Of a stretch of DNA of 35,045 nt, positions 7,845-13,580 are shown in pieces. The translations under genes were made by a program, and so were the position numbers. The notes under the pieces were generated by a model, which ran no database searches, had not been told where the DNA came from, and worked only from the letters and a program-made list of their open reading frames with translations. Numbering within the stretch: position 1 is the stretch's first letter; the number at the start of each line of letters is the position of its first letter. Origin of the DNA: an uncultured cyanobacterium (lineage in GTDB: Bacteria > Cyanobacteriota > Cyanobacteriia > Thermostichales > Thermostichaceae); the NCBI GenBank assembly GCA_937944885.1, contig CALFBB010000057.1, positions 1-35,045 of the forward strand, read 5' to 3'.

Positions 7845-8327
7845 TCAAGATTGCCAATCGGGGGAGAGGCTGGCAAAATCTCCAAAATTCACCCGGGGAT
7901 GACAATCTATACAACTACTCACCCGTACCGGGCTAGGGAACTCAACTTGCAGGTGCAAAGCCCGGAAGTAGCGAGAATCCGCCAAGCGATAGGGCACCTG
8001 TTCCCCTTGCCTCAAGGGACGCGAATTAGGCCGCAAGTATCCCCAGGCCAACTGTAGGGCTACCCCTGTCAAGGGTTGAATCTGCTGGCCGTAGTGGTTG
8101 GGATCCTGAAGAAGCCGCCTCCAGGTTTCGGTGGGCAAGACTTGCGCCGGCAAGGCCACATGGCAACCGCCACAACTGCGTACATACTGAGCCTGCTCCA
8201 GTTGGGCCTGAGTCAAGCTTGGCTGCGCTCCTGACTTCTGCCCCCATCCTGCCAGCAGGGATCCCGCCAGAACCGCGATCATCCCCCAAATCCAAAGCCG
8301 TCTGCGTCGTCCTCGTAAGCGAGGCAT
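7845..8327 (-). CDS. Dihaem cytochrome c, membrane-anchored or secreted
   Basis: The product, 160 aa from the ATG at 8327, starts with a strongly basic stretch and one hydrophobic segment (LWIWGMIAVLAGSLLAGW), a signal peptide or anchor. Two CXXCH haem sites follow: CGGCH near residue 52 and CIDCH near residue 139. The spacing and the segment LPTETWRRLLQDPNHYG after the first haem resemble the DHC dihaem cytochrome c family (PF09626). It should act outside the cytoplasmic membrane in electron transfer; its partner is unknown. GAGAGG precedes the chosen ATG. An in-frame start at 8405 would overlap the upstream gene and add an atypical 26 residues. It lies 55 nt after the DUF4347 gene and 36 nt before aat. 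Confidence 0.85.
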   Translation of the reverse strand: MPRLRGRRRRLWIWGMIAVLAGSLLAGWGQKSGAQPSLTQAQLEQAQYVRSCGGCHVALPAQVLPTETWRRLLQDPNHYGQQIQPLTGVALQLAWGYLRPNSRPLRQGEQVPYRLADSRYFRALHLQVEFPSPVRVSSCIDCHPRVNFGDFASLSPDWQS

Positions 8328-8382
8328 CCTCTCACACCCTGTAGCAGTGCTCTCCCAATCTAAACCAGGTTTAGCCCTTTCC

Positions 8383-11300
8383 CTAGTTTGACCCCGTAAC
8401 CTCAAATCGGATCAGCCCTGAAGTCCCACCGGTAAGATTGACCACCACAACACCATTGGGGTTGGGGATCCCTCCACACTCAGCAGGCACAGGCAGGCCC
8501 GGTGCGATAAAAGCTCCCCTATCCCCATCTTGGGCATCACTCAGGTTGGTAACAGGCTGACCGGTGAAGCCAAGCGATAAACTACCCGGCACATAGCTAA
8601 ACCCCGCAGCCAGAGGATCACACAGCGAAGCCGTCGCCGCAGGTGAATTCAACAAAAAGTAAATAGAGAACTCAACCCGCGAACCGGATCGCACCGCCTG
8701 GCTGACGGATCCCTGGAGGAAGGATTCTGCTCCCCCCGGCCAAGGGATCCCAGCCTCATCATTCGGATCCCCCGGCAGGTTTACATAGCCGGGAATGGGG
8801 CTGCCATTGATGGCGGTGATCCTCTTTACTAGCCGCACTTCAACCGTACCCGGATCCGGTGTCGGTGTCGGTGTTGGGGTAGGTGTTGGTGTTGGGGTAG
8901 GTGTTGGGGTAGGTGTTGGTGTTGGGGTAGGTGTCGGTGTTGGTGTTGGGGTAGGTGTTGGTGTTGGGGTAGGTGTTGGTGTTGGGGTAGGTGTTGGTGT
9001 CGGTGTCGGTATCGGGCCTGTAACCGTCACCGTAATCGTGGCAATGTTCGAGGTATTGCCTTCAGTATCATTGACTGTGTAGCTGATGGTTGAAGTTCCT
9101 GTGAATGTGGGCAGCGGCGTAAAGGTCACTACCCCTGACGCATTCACCGTGTAAGTCCCCTGTCCCGCGACTGTGAATGTAGTCTGGATCCCAGGTGTAC
9201 TCGGGTCTAAGTCCACCGTCGCCGGGTCAATGGCAAAGGTACCCGCCGTATCATTGGCCAGCACCGGAATCGTCACCGGGGTATTGGCCGGTGTGGTCGC
9301 AGTGTCATTGTTGGCAGTTGGCGGTACTGCTGCATCCACCGTCACCGTAATCGTGGCAATGTTCGAGGTATTGCCTTCAGTATCATTGACTGTGTAGTTA
9401 ATCGGCGTAGCTATCCCGGTGAATGTGGGCAGCGGCGTAAAGGTCACTACCCCTGCCGCATTCACCGTGTAAGTCCCCTGTCCCGCGACTGTGAATGTAG
9501 TCTGGATCCCAGGTGTACTCGGGTCTAAGTCCACCGTCGCCGGGTCAATGGCAAAGGTACCCGCCGTGTCATTGGCCAGCACCGAAATCGTCACCGGGGT
9601 ATTGGCCGGTGTGGTCGCAGTGTCGTTGTTGGCCGTCGGTGGGGCAAGCGCCACATTTACCGTGACAGTAGCCTCGCTACAGGTGGGCTGAATGCCCCCT
9701 AGTGGGAAACCTTGGTCACAAACCTTGTAAACAAAGGTATCCATACCAGTAAATGAGGCATTCGGGGTGTAAGTAACCTCTCCAGTTAACGGATTAACGC
9801 TGACCGTACCATTGCTCGGGCCCGTAACAACGTCCACGCTAGCTGGATCCAAATCAAAAGTAACACCCTCATCATTGCCCAGCACATTAATAACAACAGG
9901 TGTAACCCCTGAAGTGTTGGCGATGTCATCCTTTGCAATGGGGTTGAAGGTAATGATGGCACCAGCAGCAACAAGATCAATCCCTCCCTCGCCATCAGAA
10001 GTGTTTGTCGGGAAAGTATTCACATTAGCAAAGTTAGTCGGATTAGTCGGTGCATCTTGGGCCGCTACAGAAAACCCAAAAAAGGTTTGACTGGCAGCAA
10101 TGCCCAAATCCTGGTAGCTGACAAAAACCCCCGAAAGTTTTTGGTTTGTAACTGTAGAATTTGACGGGCCAGTTCCTATGAAAGGACCTGGCGACTGGTA
10201 GACCTTAACAGAAGGGAACACAGTCCCTTTACCCCAGAGCGTAGAACCCACGGTAATCACAGAGCTGTAGGTTGGGGCTAATGGATTACTGTCAATTGCA
10301 GAGATTGTAAACGGATCATTTCCTCCTCGATCCAAAATTAGAAACCCAATTTTATCTAATTTTGCAGGTGGAGCTAGAAGCCCTCCAGCATTAATGTAAT
10401 CAACTCTTTCAATATTGTTTGAGTTAATACTACCAATATTGGTAAACAAATTATCTGAGCCGGCCTTAATAACCAATGTTGGTTTGATTAAGAGCACATC
10501 CTCCATTGTCCCTGTATCCAGGCCTAGCGATAGCGGAGTATCAGGTTGAAGTACCCAAACAATTTGGCGAGAACCTTTTACATTTGCATTATCAACTCGA
10601 TTAATTTTAACCTGGTTAATCACAACTAAGGGTGTAGCTTTTAGACCACCCACCGAAACATCCACCAGGACACTATTGGCATCAAGAGTTGGCGTGGCAG
10701 CCGTTTGTAGGGTATGTTGATAGGCTTGTTGAACACCATCCTGAATGACAATAGTTGAGGCAACTTCACGGCCAGCAGTGACCTCTAGAATCCAGTCGCC
10801 ATCCAAATCTGCATGACCTGTCGCATTATTCGATGCTGCAATATCAGCTTGGGTCCAATGAGCAAGCTGCTCAATCAACAATTCCCCCGCCAATCCAGCG
10901 GCAACATGGCAGCCATAAATCAAAATATCAGCATTAGGAGCCAAAGCCTTTTGCCATGCCCGCAGCTGCCGGGCATAGGTGCCTACGTTGCTCAGAGAGA
11001 GTGTGGCGCTCCCCAGCTCAATGGTTCCCGGGCTGCCATGGGAAAGAATGTGAATAGCCTGGATCCCTTGGCGAGTACTTAAGGCCTCTGTAATTTGCTG
11101 GATCCCGTCTTGATCCCTATCCAGCAAGATCACCTCAGCACCGGGATGGATCCCTGCCAATAGGATGGCCAAATCCGACAGATTGGGATCCACAAAAACT
11201 AGTTCCTGTCCAGCAGTAATATCCGCAATCCTGCCAGGATCCCTTTGGGCTGCGTTGATCTCAGCCGAAGCAGATATCAGCAGCAAGAGTGCAGTTGCGA

Positions 11301-11391
11301 CACTTCCCAAGCCCAACCTAGGGAGCCAGCACTTGGTTGTTAGCCCTTTGGCTTGAATAGCTTGAGATCGGTTAGATTTTTGGGCTGACAT
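8383..11391 (-). CDS. Large secreted DUF4347 protein with cadherin-like repeats
   Basis: This is a 1002-aa extracellular protein. Residues 25-48 are a signal-type hydrophobic segment. Residues about 60-215 match DUF4347, with the conserved HILSHGS (His118) and ILIYGCHVA (Cys161) blocks. An unassigned beta-rich region follows (216 to about 500). Three cadherin-like/VCBS-type units come next, built on the pattern [21 protein letters not shown]; the last two are near-identical 105-aa copies. A Pro-Thr linker of about 25 repeats precedes a C-terminal domain (about 895-1002) that resembles the conserved-repeat domains of bacterial surface proteins. CAGGAG lies eight bases before the ATG at 11391; a GTG at 11409 would add six residues. 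It is the third gene of a run with a VWA lipoprotein and a second lipoprotein-like protein. Adhesion or surface-layer function is inferred. Confidence 0.88.
8858..9016. repeat. Hexanucleotide minisatellite encoding (Pro-Thr)n
   Basis: About 26 hexamers of GGTGTT, GGTGTC and GGGGTA run in tandem, many ordered in 12- and 18-bp higher units. On the minus strand they encode the Pro-Thr linker of the DUF4347 protein. Because the unit is 6 bp, copy-number change keeps the reading frame and only alters linker length. Confidence 0.95.
9023..9652. repeat. Two tandem 315-bp copies inside the DUF4347 gene
   Basis: The blocks 9023-9337 and 9338-9652 are nearly identical over most of their length. Each encodes one 105-aa cadherin-like unit. 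Differences cluster around the TFTG strand (IATPINYTV versus TSTISYTV), which suggests recent duplication or ongoing gene conversion. Confidence 0.9.
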
Positions 11392-11446
11392 ACTGACGCT
11401 CCTGCACACAGAATCTTGAGTCTGCTTCTACAAAACGTGAGGGAAA

Positions 11447-12397
11447 TTAGGGGAATGTAATCGTTATAGAAACAGCATTGGAAGATTGCGTTACCCCGTT
11501 AACTGTAACAAAGGCCCTGTTGATCAAAACCAGCCGCGGCTGCTCTGGAGTGGGAGTAGGATCGGCCGTAGTGGGGGATGGCACCGGAGTGGGAACCGCC
11601 GGAGTAGGCAATGGAGCTACAGGCAGATCCGGAATGGGCGATGGCAGCCGAATGGGAATCTCTACCCGACAGCGCTCATCTGATTGATTGCCCTCAGGAG
11701 CGTAGCAAACCCGAATCAGATCTTCTACAAAGCGCAAATTGCCAAAACGGAGACGATCCGCCCGGTCGATTAAATCTGAGACGAGCTCTTCAAAAGTTCT
11801 GACCGTCCCTGACAAAGGCACCTGCGTAAAGAGGATATTCTCCAGATCCCGTAGCTCGGCAGCCGTCAAGTTTGTCCAGACAATTCTGCCTTGATTTCGC
11901 TCCCGCAGAAGTATCCGGTAGAGGGCTTCACTCCAAGGACTAACATCTACCGCTGCGCTGAAGACAAACCCTCGCAAAATACTGCCATCACCAGCAGTGA
12001 CTTGCACCAGTTGCCCTGCAGGATTGGTAATCTCACCTTGAAATGAAAAGCCAAACCGTCCTCCTGCTTCCAGAGAGGTGGTATCCCGTGCTGGCAGGAG
12101 AAGATCCCCTCGCGAGCTGAGGTTAAAAAGTTGTACGAGGCTACCTGGCCCAAAAATAACGCTCCTGCTTCTACACAAGGCTACTTCTGAATTGCCAGGG
12201 CAGCCCAGTAGGACAAAAGGATCCAGCACTCGCCCGACAATGGCTACTGGGATCCCTGCCGTTGGCCTGTCTCCGCCAGCGGGTAGTGGGGTTGTGGTCA
12301 AGCTGGAGCTGCCCCCGCTACAGCTTTTCAGCAAGACTGCCGCCAGCAATCCAGCTATGGCGACTAAGGATCGGATTGCCTTGTCTCGAGTTGCCAT
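11447..12397 (-). CDS. Secreted lipoprotein-like protein with Pro-Thr linker, function unknown
   Basis: The 316-aa product has an N-terminal hydrophobic export signal (residues 9-25) ending LLKSCSGGSSS, a possible but atypical lipobox because Lys is at -2. Residues about 45-150 look beta-rich, with GRVLDPFVLLGCP and RFGFSFQGEITNPAGQLVQVTAGDG. Residues about 160-225 are helical. A Pro/Thr/Val-rich spacer (about 250-285) leads to a short C-terminal strand region. The ATG overlaps the stop of the upstream VWA gene as TAATG, so the two are translationally coupled. The next gene, for the DUF4347 protein, begins 55 nt downstream. I do not recognise the family. Its coupling to a VWA lipoprotein suggests a joint role at the outer surface or in the periplasm. 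Confidence 0.8.
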   Translation of the reverse strand: MATRDKAIRSLVAIAGLLAAVLLKSCSGGSSSLTTTPLPAGGDRPTAGIPVAIVGRVLDPFVLLGCPGNSEVALCRSRSVIFGPGSLVQLFNLSSRGDLLLPARDTTSLEAGGRFGFSFQGEITNPAGQLVQVTAGDGSILRGFVFSAAVDVSPWSEALYRILLRERNQGRIVWTNLTAAELRDLENILFTQVPLSGTVRTFEELVSDLIDRADRLRFGNLRFVEDLIRVCYAPEGNQSDERCRVEIPIRLPSPIPDLPVAPLPTPAVPTPVPSPTTADPTPTPEQPRLVLINRAFVTVNGVTQSSNAVSITITFP

Positions 12398-13530
12398 TAG
12401 CGCACCACCAATACTGCATCACGGAACTCTGTGGTTAAGCTCAGTCCACCGCGACTGATCTGTAAGCTACCGCTCAGTAGATAGTTGCCAGCTGCCAAGG
12501 GCGATGTTGTCTCAACCCTTACAGCCACCCGATTTTCCCCAATTGCTGCCGGAAAGAGATTGGCAAAAGGAGGCCCCAAGTCTTCTGCTACTTTGGCCAA
12601 AGCAAAGGTTCCTTGGGTGGCCTCCGCCAACTGCTGCAGCTCAAACAGATCCAAATCCGTTCCCAAGCCGATGATGTAGGTCGGGATCCCCTGCCGAGAG
12701 CCATTGGGCAGCTGTTGCACTTGGCGGGCTACTTCTGTCAAGCTAAGAAGACTTTCGTTGTCGATCCCATCGGTGAAAACCACTAGCCGCCGGTTGAGAT
12801 TCTCACTCTGCCGGAAATCACTGAGAAACTGAGCCGTCTCTAGAGTGGCATCGTAGAGAGCTGTATTACCTCCGGGGGCGCTCAGCAGAATACCTCGACG
12901 TAGCGCCGCTTGGTCGTTGGTGAAGTCTTGTAGAAGTTGGGCCGTTCGCAAAGGTCGGCCCAGAGCTGTTACCCCAAAGCCGGTTCCCTGGTTGTCAAAC
13001 CGTAAAATGGCCCCAACATCCAAGGGAGAAGAACGAAACTGCTCCAGTAGCCCGAATGCTGCCAGAAACCTGCGATCCTGACGGTCAGTGACAAACAAAC
13101 TACCTGAGCCGTCCATCAAAATGGCCATCGCCAAGGGCTGCTGCGACAGGTCAGGACGGGGATTTTGGACCCGGCTGGGAGTTAGCCTCAAAGACACCGA
13201 CTGCGGGATCCCTACCAGATCTGTAACCCTGTCAACCCTAAAGCCAATTTCATTCGCCGCCAGCTGAGTTACAGGCTGAGGGGGATCCCTGCGCTCAAGC
13301 AGAGAGAGGTTAAACTCCATCTCCCCTTGAGTGCCGACAAAGAAACGCGTAAAAGCCCCGTTAAAAGTGAGACGCTGCCCGCTTGCTCCCGGATCCCCTA
13401 CCCCGACCAACGTACCGGATGACGAGGAGCCACAACCGGTCACCGCCCAAAGAAACAGGAGGCTAAGCCAACGCAGCCAATAGAAAACACTGGTGCTAGC
13501 AGTGCTAGACCTAGGATAAACACCAGCCAA
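12397..13530 (-). CDS. VWA-domain lipoprotein
   Basis: The 377-aa product has a lipoprotein signal with lipobox AVTGC (acylated Cys33) and a Ser-rich tether. A beta-domain precedes the VWA domain (about residues 130-310). The metal site looks complete: DGSGS at 140-144, Thr224 in GGNTALYDA and Asp254 in FTDGIDNES. A further C-terminal beta-domain follows. Such domains usually bind protein ligands through a divalent metal. The start is a TTG at 13530 with AGGAG nine bases upstream; no better in-frame start precedes the signal peptide, so start confidence is moderate. It is first in the run leading to the second lipoprotein and the DUF4347 protein. The 222 nt before it hold three short repeats that may be regulatory. 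Confidence 0.87.
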   Translation of the reverse strand: MAGVYPRSSTASTSVFYWLRWLSLLFLWAVTGCGSSSSGTLVGVGDPGASGQRLTFNGAFTRFFVGTQGEMEFNLSLLERRDPPQPVTQLAANEIGFRVDRVTDLVGIPQSVSLRLTPSRVQNPRPDLSQQPLAMAILMDGSGSLFVTDRQDRRFLAAFGLLEQFRSSPLDVGAILRFDNQGTGFGVTALGRPLRTAQLLQDFTNDQAALRRGILLSAPGGNTALYDATLETAQFLSDFRQSENLNRRLVVFTDGIDNESLLSLTEVARQVQQLPNGSRQGIPTYIIGLGTDLDLFELQQLAEATQGTFALAKVAEDLGPPFANLFPAAIGENRVAVRVETTSPLAAGNYLLSGSLQISRGGLSLTTEFRDAVLVVR

Positions 13531-13545
13531 GGGAATAGACTCCTC

Positions 13546-13580
13546 TCTTACGGGTCTCTTACGGGTTTCTTCTTACAGGT
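13546..13580 (-). promoter_or_regulatory. Three direct repeats upstream of the VWA operon
   Basis: TCTTACGGGT at 13546 and 13557 and TCTTACAGGT at 13571 lie just before the VWA start. Centre spacing is 11 and 14 bp, close to one helical turn, so a regulator could bind several copies on one face. The rest of 13531-13752 is AT-rich between 13650 and 13700, with a weak 5-bp stem at 13695-13708 that could end clpP3 transcription. Confidence 0.35.

Follow-up and report, generated by a model that had tools for sequence, protein, structure and literature searches.

In LapA/LapG-type adhesin retention, a giant repeat protein at the cell surface is combined with a cysteine-type peptidase, LapG, which is a separate periplasmic protease of the BTLCP type. 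Other surface proteins, such as PilY1, carry an exported VWA domain with a MIDAS and may bind their ligands in a metal-dependent manner. Cyanobacteria encode DUF4347-RTX giants, in which the domains after an N-terminal DUF4347 are of the cadherin/Big, Calx-beta or enzyme kind; many of these proteins have little or nothing ahead of DUF4347, and RTX repeats form the C-terminal end of many, as in type I secretion substrates. Outside this phylum, PA0256 of Pseudomonas aeruginosa carries a DUF4347 domain (PMC8262886), and a 2026 paper names this protein Tce1 and describes it as a putative cysteine protease with a His186/Cys240 dyad (PMC13323088). In the literature searched, neither Tce1 nor any DUF4347 domain from cyanobacteria is reported to have protease activity, which counts against reading the domain as a peptidase, and we found no experimental work on such a protein from cyanobacteria.

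The locus analysed here lies in a 35,045-nucleotide stretch of DNA from an uncultured cyanobacterium of the family Thermostichaceae (the window). As the original prediction had it, three consecutive minus-strand genes encode exported proteins, which we refer to as VWA, MID and GIANT. VWA (12397–13530; 377 aa, TTG start) comprises a lipobox, an N-terminal beta region, a VWA domain with an intact MIDAS (Pfam VWA 1.8e-7, above the cut-off) and a C-terminal beta region. Its TAA stop overlaps the ATG of MID as TAATG (CGCTAATGG), an overlap already described. The family-specific MID protein (11447–12397; 316 aa) consists of a Cys after a hydrophobic stretch, a beta-sandwich-like part, a helical part, a Pro-Thr linker and a C-terminal beta hairpin. 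GIANT (8383–11391) has its ATG at 11391, 55 nt past the MID stop and with GGAG ahead of it, which fits the 1002-aa DUF4347/cadherin-like protein originally proposed; an alternative GTG start would extend it to 1008 aa (8383–11409). It is composed of a hydrophobic N-terminus, DUF4347, cadherin/Big/CshA repeats, a long Pro-Thr repeat linker recognised in the sequence (8845–9012, approximate ends) and a C-terminal beta-rich domain (8386–8840), so that two of the proteins, MID and GIANT, do contain the Pro-Thr linkers claimed for them. In Pfam, GIANT matched DUF4347 together with Big_9, CshA and cadherin repeats; NCBIfam added mainly a CshA-type repeat, with a tandem-95 repeat just below the cut-off and the VWA model sub-threshold. 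Linkers similar to the Pro-Thr repeat of GIANT occur elsewhere in the same genomes, at many loci.

No consensus promoter or terminator was found above chance in the stretch, so it is the spacing of the genes that argues for a shared transcript, and the trio probably constitutes one operon. A short direct repeat present in two copies (ACCCGTAAGAG; 13537–13570) lies in what is presumed to be the leader, just ahead of the start codon of VWA. At the other end, the ORF of a dihaem cytochrome c gene (DHC; 7845–8405) overlaps the end of GIANT. The original prediction had noted that this cytochrome follows directly, which is true in the window, but it is not a conserved neighbour: it stands beside the trio in no relative, and we rejected it as a member of the unit.

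The DUF4347 domain of GIANT (PF14252; 10708–11202, minus strand; E 1.6e-57) scored 189.6 bits in Pfam (4.2e-56) against a cut-off of 24.6, and its AlphaFold model reached a pLDDT of 93.9. Structure comparison of this model with Foldseek and VIA-align gave Tce1 as the best match (9qpe; Z 13.2, rmsd 2.8, 146 residues aligned), followed by SAVED-CHAT (Z 9.2) and then by Craspase CHAT, caspases, legumain and C11, whose Z values of about 7 mean little alone and are exceeded by those of 9qpe and SAVED-CHAT. The chain 9qpe_G is itself deposited as a DUF4347 protein. The layout of motifs is that of clan CD, with a hydrophobic strand (52–58) followed by SHG and a second strand (92–101) followed by YGC. 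In an alignment of 35 domains, five from trio giants and 30 from other cyanobacteria, the Cys of YGC was present in every sequence and the His of SHG in 34. The one copy that has lost the His, at L109:1468-2013, carries SFG in place of SHG. As modelled, the N-terminal domain of GIANT is shown to adopt a cysteine-peptidase fold of clan CD (caspase/CHAT/CPD-like) and to carry the His-Cys pair expected of such a fold. H118 (codon 11038–11040, minus strand; H124 from the GTG) and C161 (10909–10911, minus strand; C167 from the GTG) are the candidate catalytic residues, and are candidates for the counterparts of the Tce1 dyad on the basis of fold and motif rather than of a residue-level superposition.

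Sequence profiles of cyanobacterial CHAT and C14 families matched DUF4347 weakly (E ~0.03, probability <2%), and the weak C14 alignment paired His-Gly with His-Gly and ran through both Cys sites, so the assignment of the fold rests on structure. The possibility that DUF4347 is an adhesin fold was ruled out by the matches of the model to Tce1 and then to CHAT and caspase-type peptidases. The DUF4347 profile also matched ECT2L (PDB 11xu_A1) weakly but over nearly its full length (E 0.0029), which suggests a eukaryotic relative of the domain. The metal-dependent adhesion or surface assembly that had been put forward for this locus is an incomplete description: some 160 residues near the start of GIANT have a fold of the peptidase type and contain a His-Cys pair, which makes a proteolytic step at least as likely as adhesion.

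Tce1 and GIANT share the DUF4347 fold and the conserved His and Cys, but they differ in context: Tce1 is a 310-aa type VI cargo loaded in Hcp3, whereas the trio domain heads a 1002-aa repeat protein, predicted to be Sec-exported and encoded with two partner genes. Of 386 genomes of the cyanobacterial phylum, 96 encode the DUF4347 domain, often in several copies. Seven of these large secreted proteins were examined in full: DUF4347 was N-terminal in each, the domains after it were cadherin, beta-helix, lectin-like, Calx-beta or chitinase (GH18) domains, and five of the seven had RTX repeats. Two loci (L132:9818-13309 and L133:6432-9938) fuse DUF4347 directly to a GH18 chitinase-type domain, followed by Calx-beta and RTX, a layout in which an N-terminal peptidase-type domain stands ahead of an enzyme payload. 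All five trio giants have a strongly hydrophobic segment before DUF4347 (14-residue mean hydropathy 1.9–2.3); one non-trio copy reaches 1.96, in sequence that possibly lies ahead of the true start. GGxGxD motifs were absent from the available sequence of the five trio giants, two of which are cut by contig ends and others of which have N runs or frame breaks. The GIANT of the window has no HemolysinCabind match, no GGxGxD and a hydrophobic N-terminus, and is not an RTX/type I substrate by these marks. The trio giants thus differ from the DUF4347-RTX giants in their Sec-like N-terminus, in the lack of any RTX repeat seen and in their two partner genes. With a home-made profile, no VWA was detected beside DUF4347 at 20 loci elsewhere, and the 25 families listed by a Pfam scan of 132 neighbours of DUF4347 loci do not include VWA.

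The MIDAS of VWA reads DGSGS...T...TDGID, in agreement with the DxSxS...T...D signature of such domains; it is intact, as originally claimed, and conserved in the orthologues, the first Asp-x-Ser-x-Ser being DSSGS in G004. A lipobox was recognised by eye (AVTGC), and its Cys is invariant across six aligned orthologues. VWA orthologues were found in seven genomes. Outside the window's family, none of the 386 phylum genomes contained a full-length relative, and matches elsewhere covered mainly the VWA core; likewise, a profile search of the PDB returned matches only to the VWA core of TRAP proteins. The likeness to PilY1-type proteins is limited to the exported VWA domain and its possible metal-dependent binding, and no pilus genes were seen adjoining the trio.

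MID had no family or structure match in Pfam, NCBIfam or the PDB, and its predicted structure was of low confidence (pLDDT 47), too poor for a fold search. The Cys after its hydrophobic stretch is invariant, but four of five orthologues have a Lys at −2 (LKSC, LKGC or IKSC), an atypical lipobox, and the canonical form occurs only in G006. For the earlier description of MID as a second lipoprotein, the conserved Cys speaks in favour and the Lys against; a lipid anchor is plausible from the sequence. The 386 genomes sample the phylum evenly, and none of those outside the window's family yielded MID (within the sample, only genus members did); orthologues or remnants of MID were found only in that family.

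Relatives of MID and VWA occur in G001–G004, which belong to the window's genus, and in G006 and G007, from two other genera; they were not found in G005 or G008. The order VWA-MID-GIANT is retained in five genomes (G000, G003, G004, G006 and G007) that represent three genera of one family, and at unlike chromosomal sites, so the genes are indeed neighbours elsewhere, as the original prediction needed. A unit spread across cyanobacteria was not seen; we found it only within one family. Beyond these five genomes, two keep remnants (G001 and G002) and one lacks the genes. In G003, GIANT runs off contig C5 within the Pro-Thr repeat, and the matching C-terminal half ends contig C48, by a psbQ-like gene; in G007, the halves also lie on separate contigs that we infer to join, and both assemblies break in or near the Pro-Thr linker. 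Searches of viral contigs and plasmids found no relative. This comparison of gene orders gives good support to the view that the trio is a system, and because the three genes are kept together, in the same order and at several sites in related genomes, they probably represent one small cell-surface module.

The trio adjoins clpP in G000 and G004. In G001, G002 and G003, its site is flanked by tyrS and a short gene on one side and by a psbQ-like gene on the other, and the trios of G006 and G007 have other neighbours. The tyrS/psbQ-like site is empty in G000, G004 and G005, with the flanks about 300 bases apart, that is, in genomes that have the trio elsewhere or do not have it. Several stages of loss are also visible. 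An internal deletion in the GIANT of G001 removed DUF4347 and the repeats and retained the N-terminus and the C-terminal domain, indicating that the head is dispensable there or that the gene is decaying. G002 still has a shortened VWA and a MID stub. All three trio genes of G004 contain frame breaks, and the adjoining clpP1, clpP2 and clpC are intact; dN/dS values between G000 and G004 were 0.08–0.19 for all three genes, which shows earlier purifying selection. The variety of sites and the joint decay show that the three genes have for the most part been retained, relocated or lost together. The VWA and MID of G000 and G004 are closer to those of G007, from another genus, than to those of G001 and G003. 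This likeness could reflect horizontal transfer of the unit from one genus to another, but trees that hold the genus together were not rejected (MID p-AU 0.065; concatenate p-AU 0.21; VWA unresolved).

Taken as a whole, we tentatively favour an optional outer-surface module made of the VWA lipoprotein, MID and a stalked, Sec-exported GIANT with a caspase-like peptidase head. VWA and MID would be exported by Sec and held by lipid at the outer membrane. GIANT would follow the same export route; its cadherin-type repeats and Pro-Thr linker would form the stalk, its C-terminal domain would bind the cell or the VWA-MID pair, and the DUF4347 head may act as a peptidase on GIANT itself or on neighbouring surface proteins. 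The MIDAS of VWA would bind a metal-dependent ligand, either GIANT or an outside surface, and thereby hold or switch GIANT. A more specific version, in which VWA with MID binds GIANT at the outer membrane and times self-release of the head or cleavage of neighbours as a metal-gated surface protease, is rather doubtful; no such metal-gated, protease-type surface switch has been described for cyanobacteria in the literature searched. The arrangement resembles LapA/LapG in joining a surface repeat giant to a cysteine-type peptidase, but in the trio the peptidase-type domain lies within GIANT and belongs to another clan.

A serious rival, although we regard it as unlikely, is that the module serves adhesion only, with the repeats and VWA doing the binding and DUF4347 as an idle head or export cap that cuts nothing. 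VWA and repeats of the CshA and cadherin types are features typical of adhesins, the G001 GIANT persists without DUF4347, and in yeast Tce1 was not toxic, a setting in which the putative active site of Tce2 matters for toxicity (PMC13323088). However, an idle cap would not need the Cys and His that are conserved in 35/35 and 34/35 cyanobacterial copies. It is improbable that another cell is the target of the peptidase head, in contact-dependent antagonism or defence against predation, as proposed for the type VI DUF4347 effector. The closest relative of known structure is a T6SS cargo and the patchy loss among close relatives would suit an optional competitive trait, but the trio has no conserved neighbour that encodes a secretion apparatus or resembles an immunity gene, and its Sec signal and lipoprotein partners suggest a role at the surface of the cell itself. 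That three unrelated exported genes are neighbours by chance, as the 55-nt gap before the DUF4347 gene might allow, is very improbable, being already refuted by the shared order in three genera at unlike sites and countered by the joint decay in G004 and G002.

DUF4347 is rarely mentioned in the literature that we searched, and its role becomes accessible to experiment once it is read as a caspase-like cysteine-peptidase domain whose His-Cys pair is conserved. The trio offers a compact case, in which a putatively Sec-exported DUF4347 protein is accompanied by two small co-inherited partners, and the window's family holds natural variants in which either DUF4347 or the whole module has been lost.
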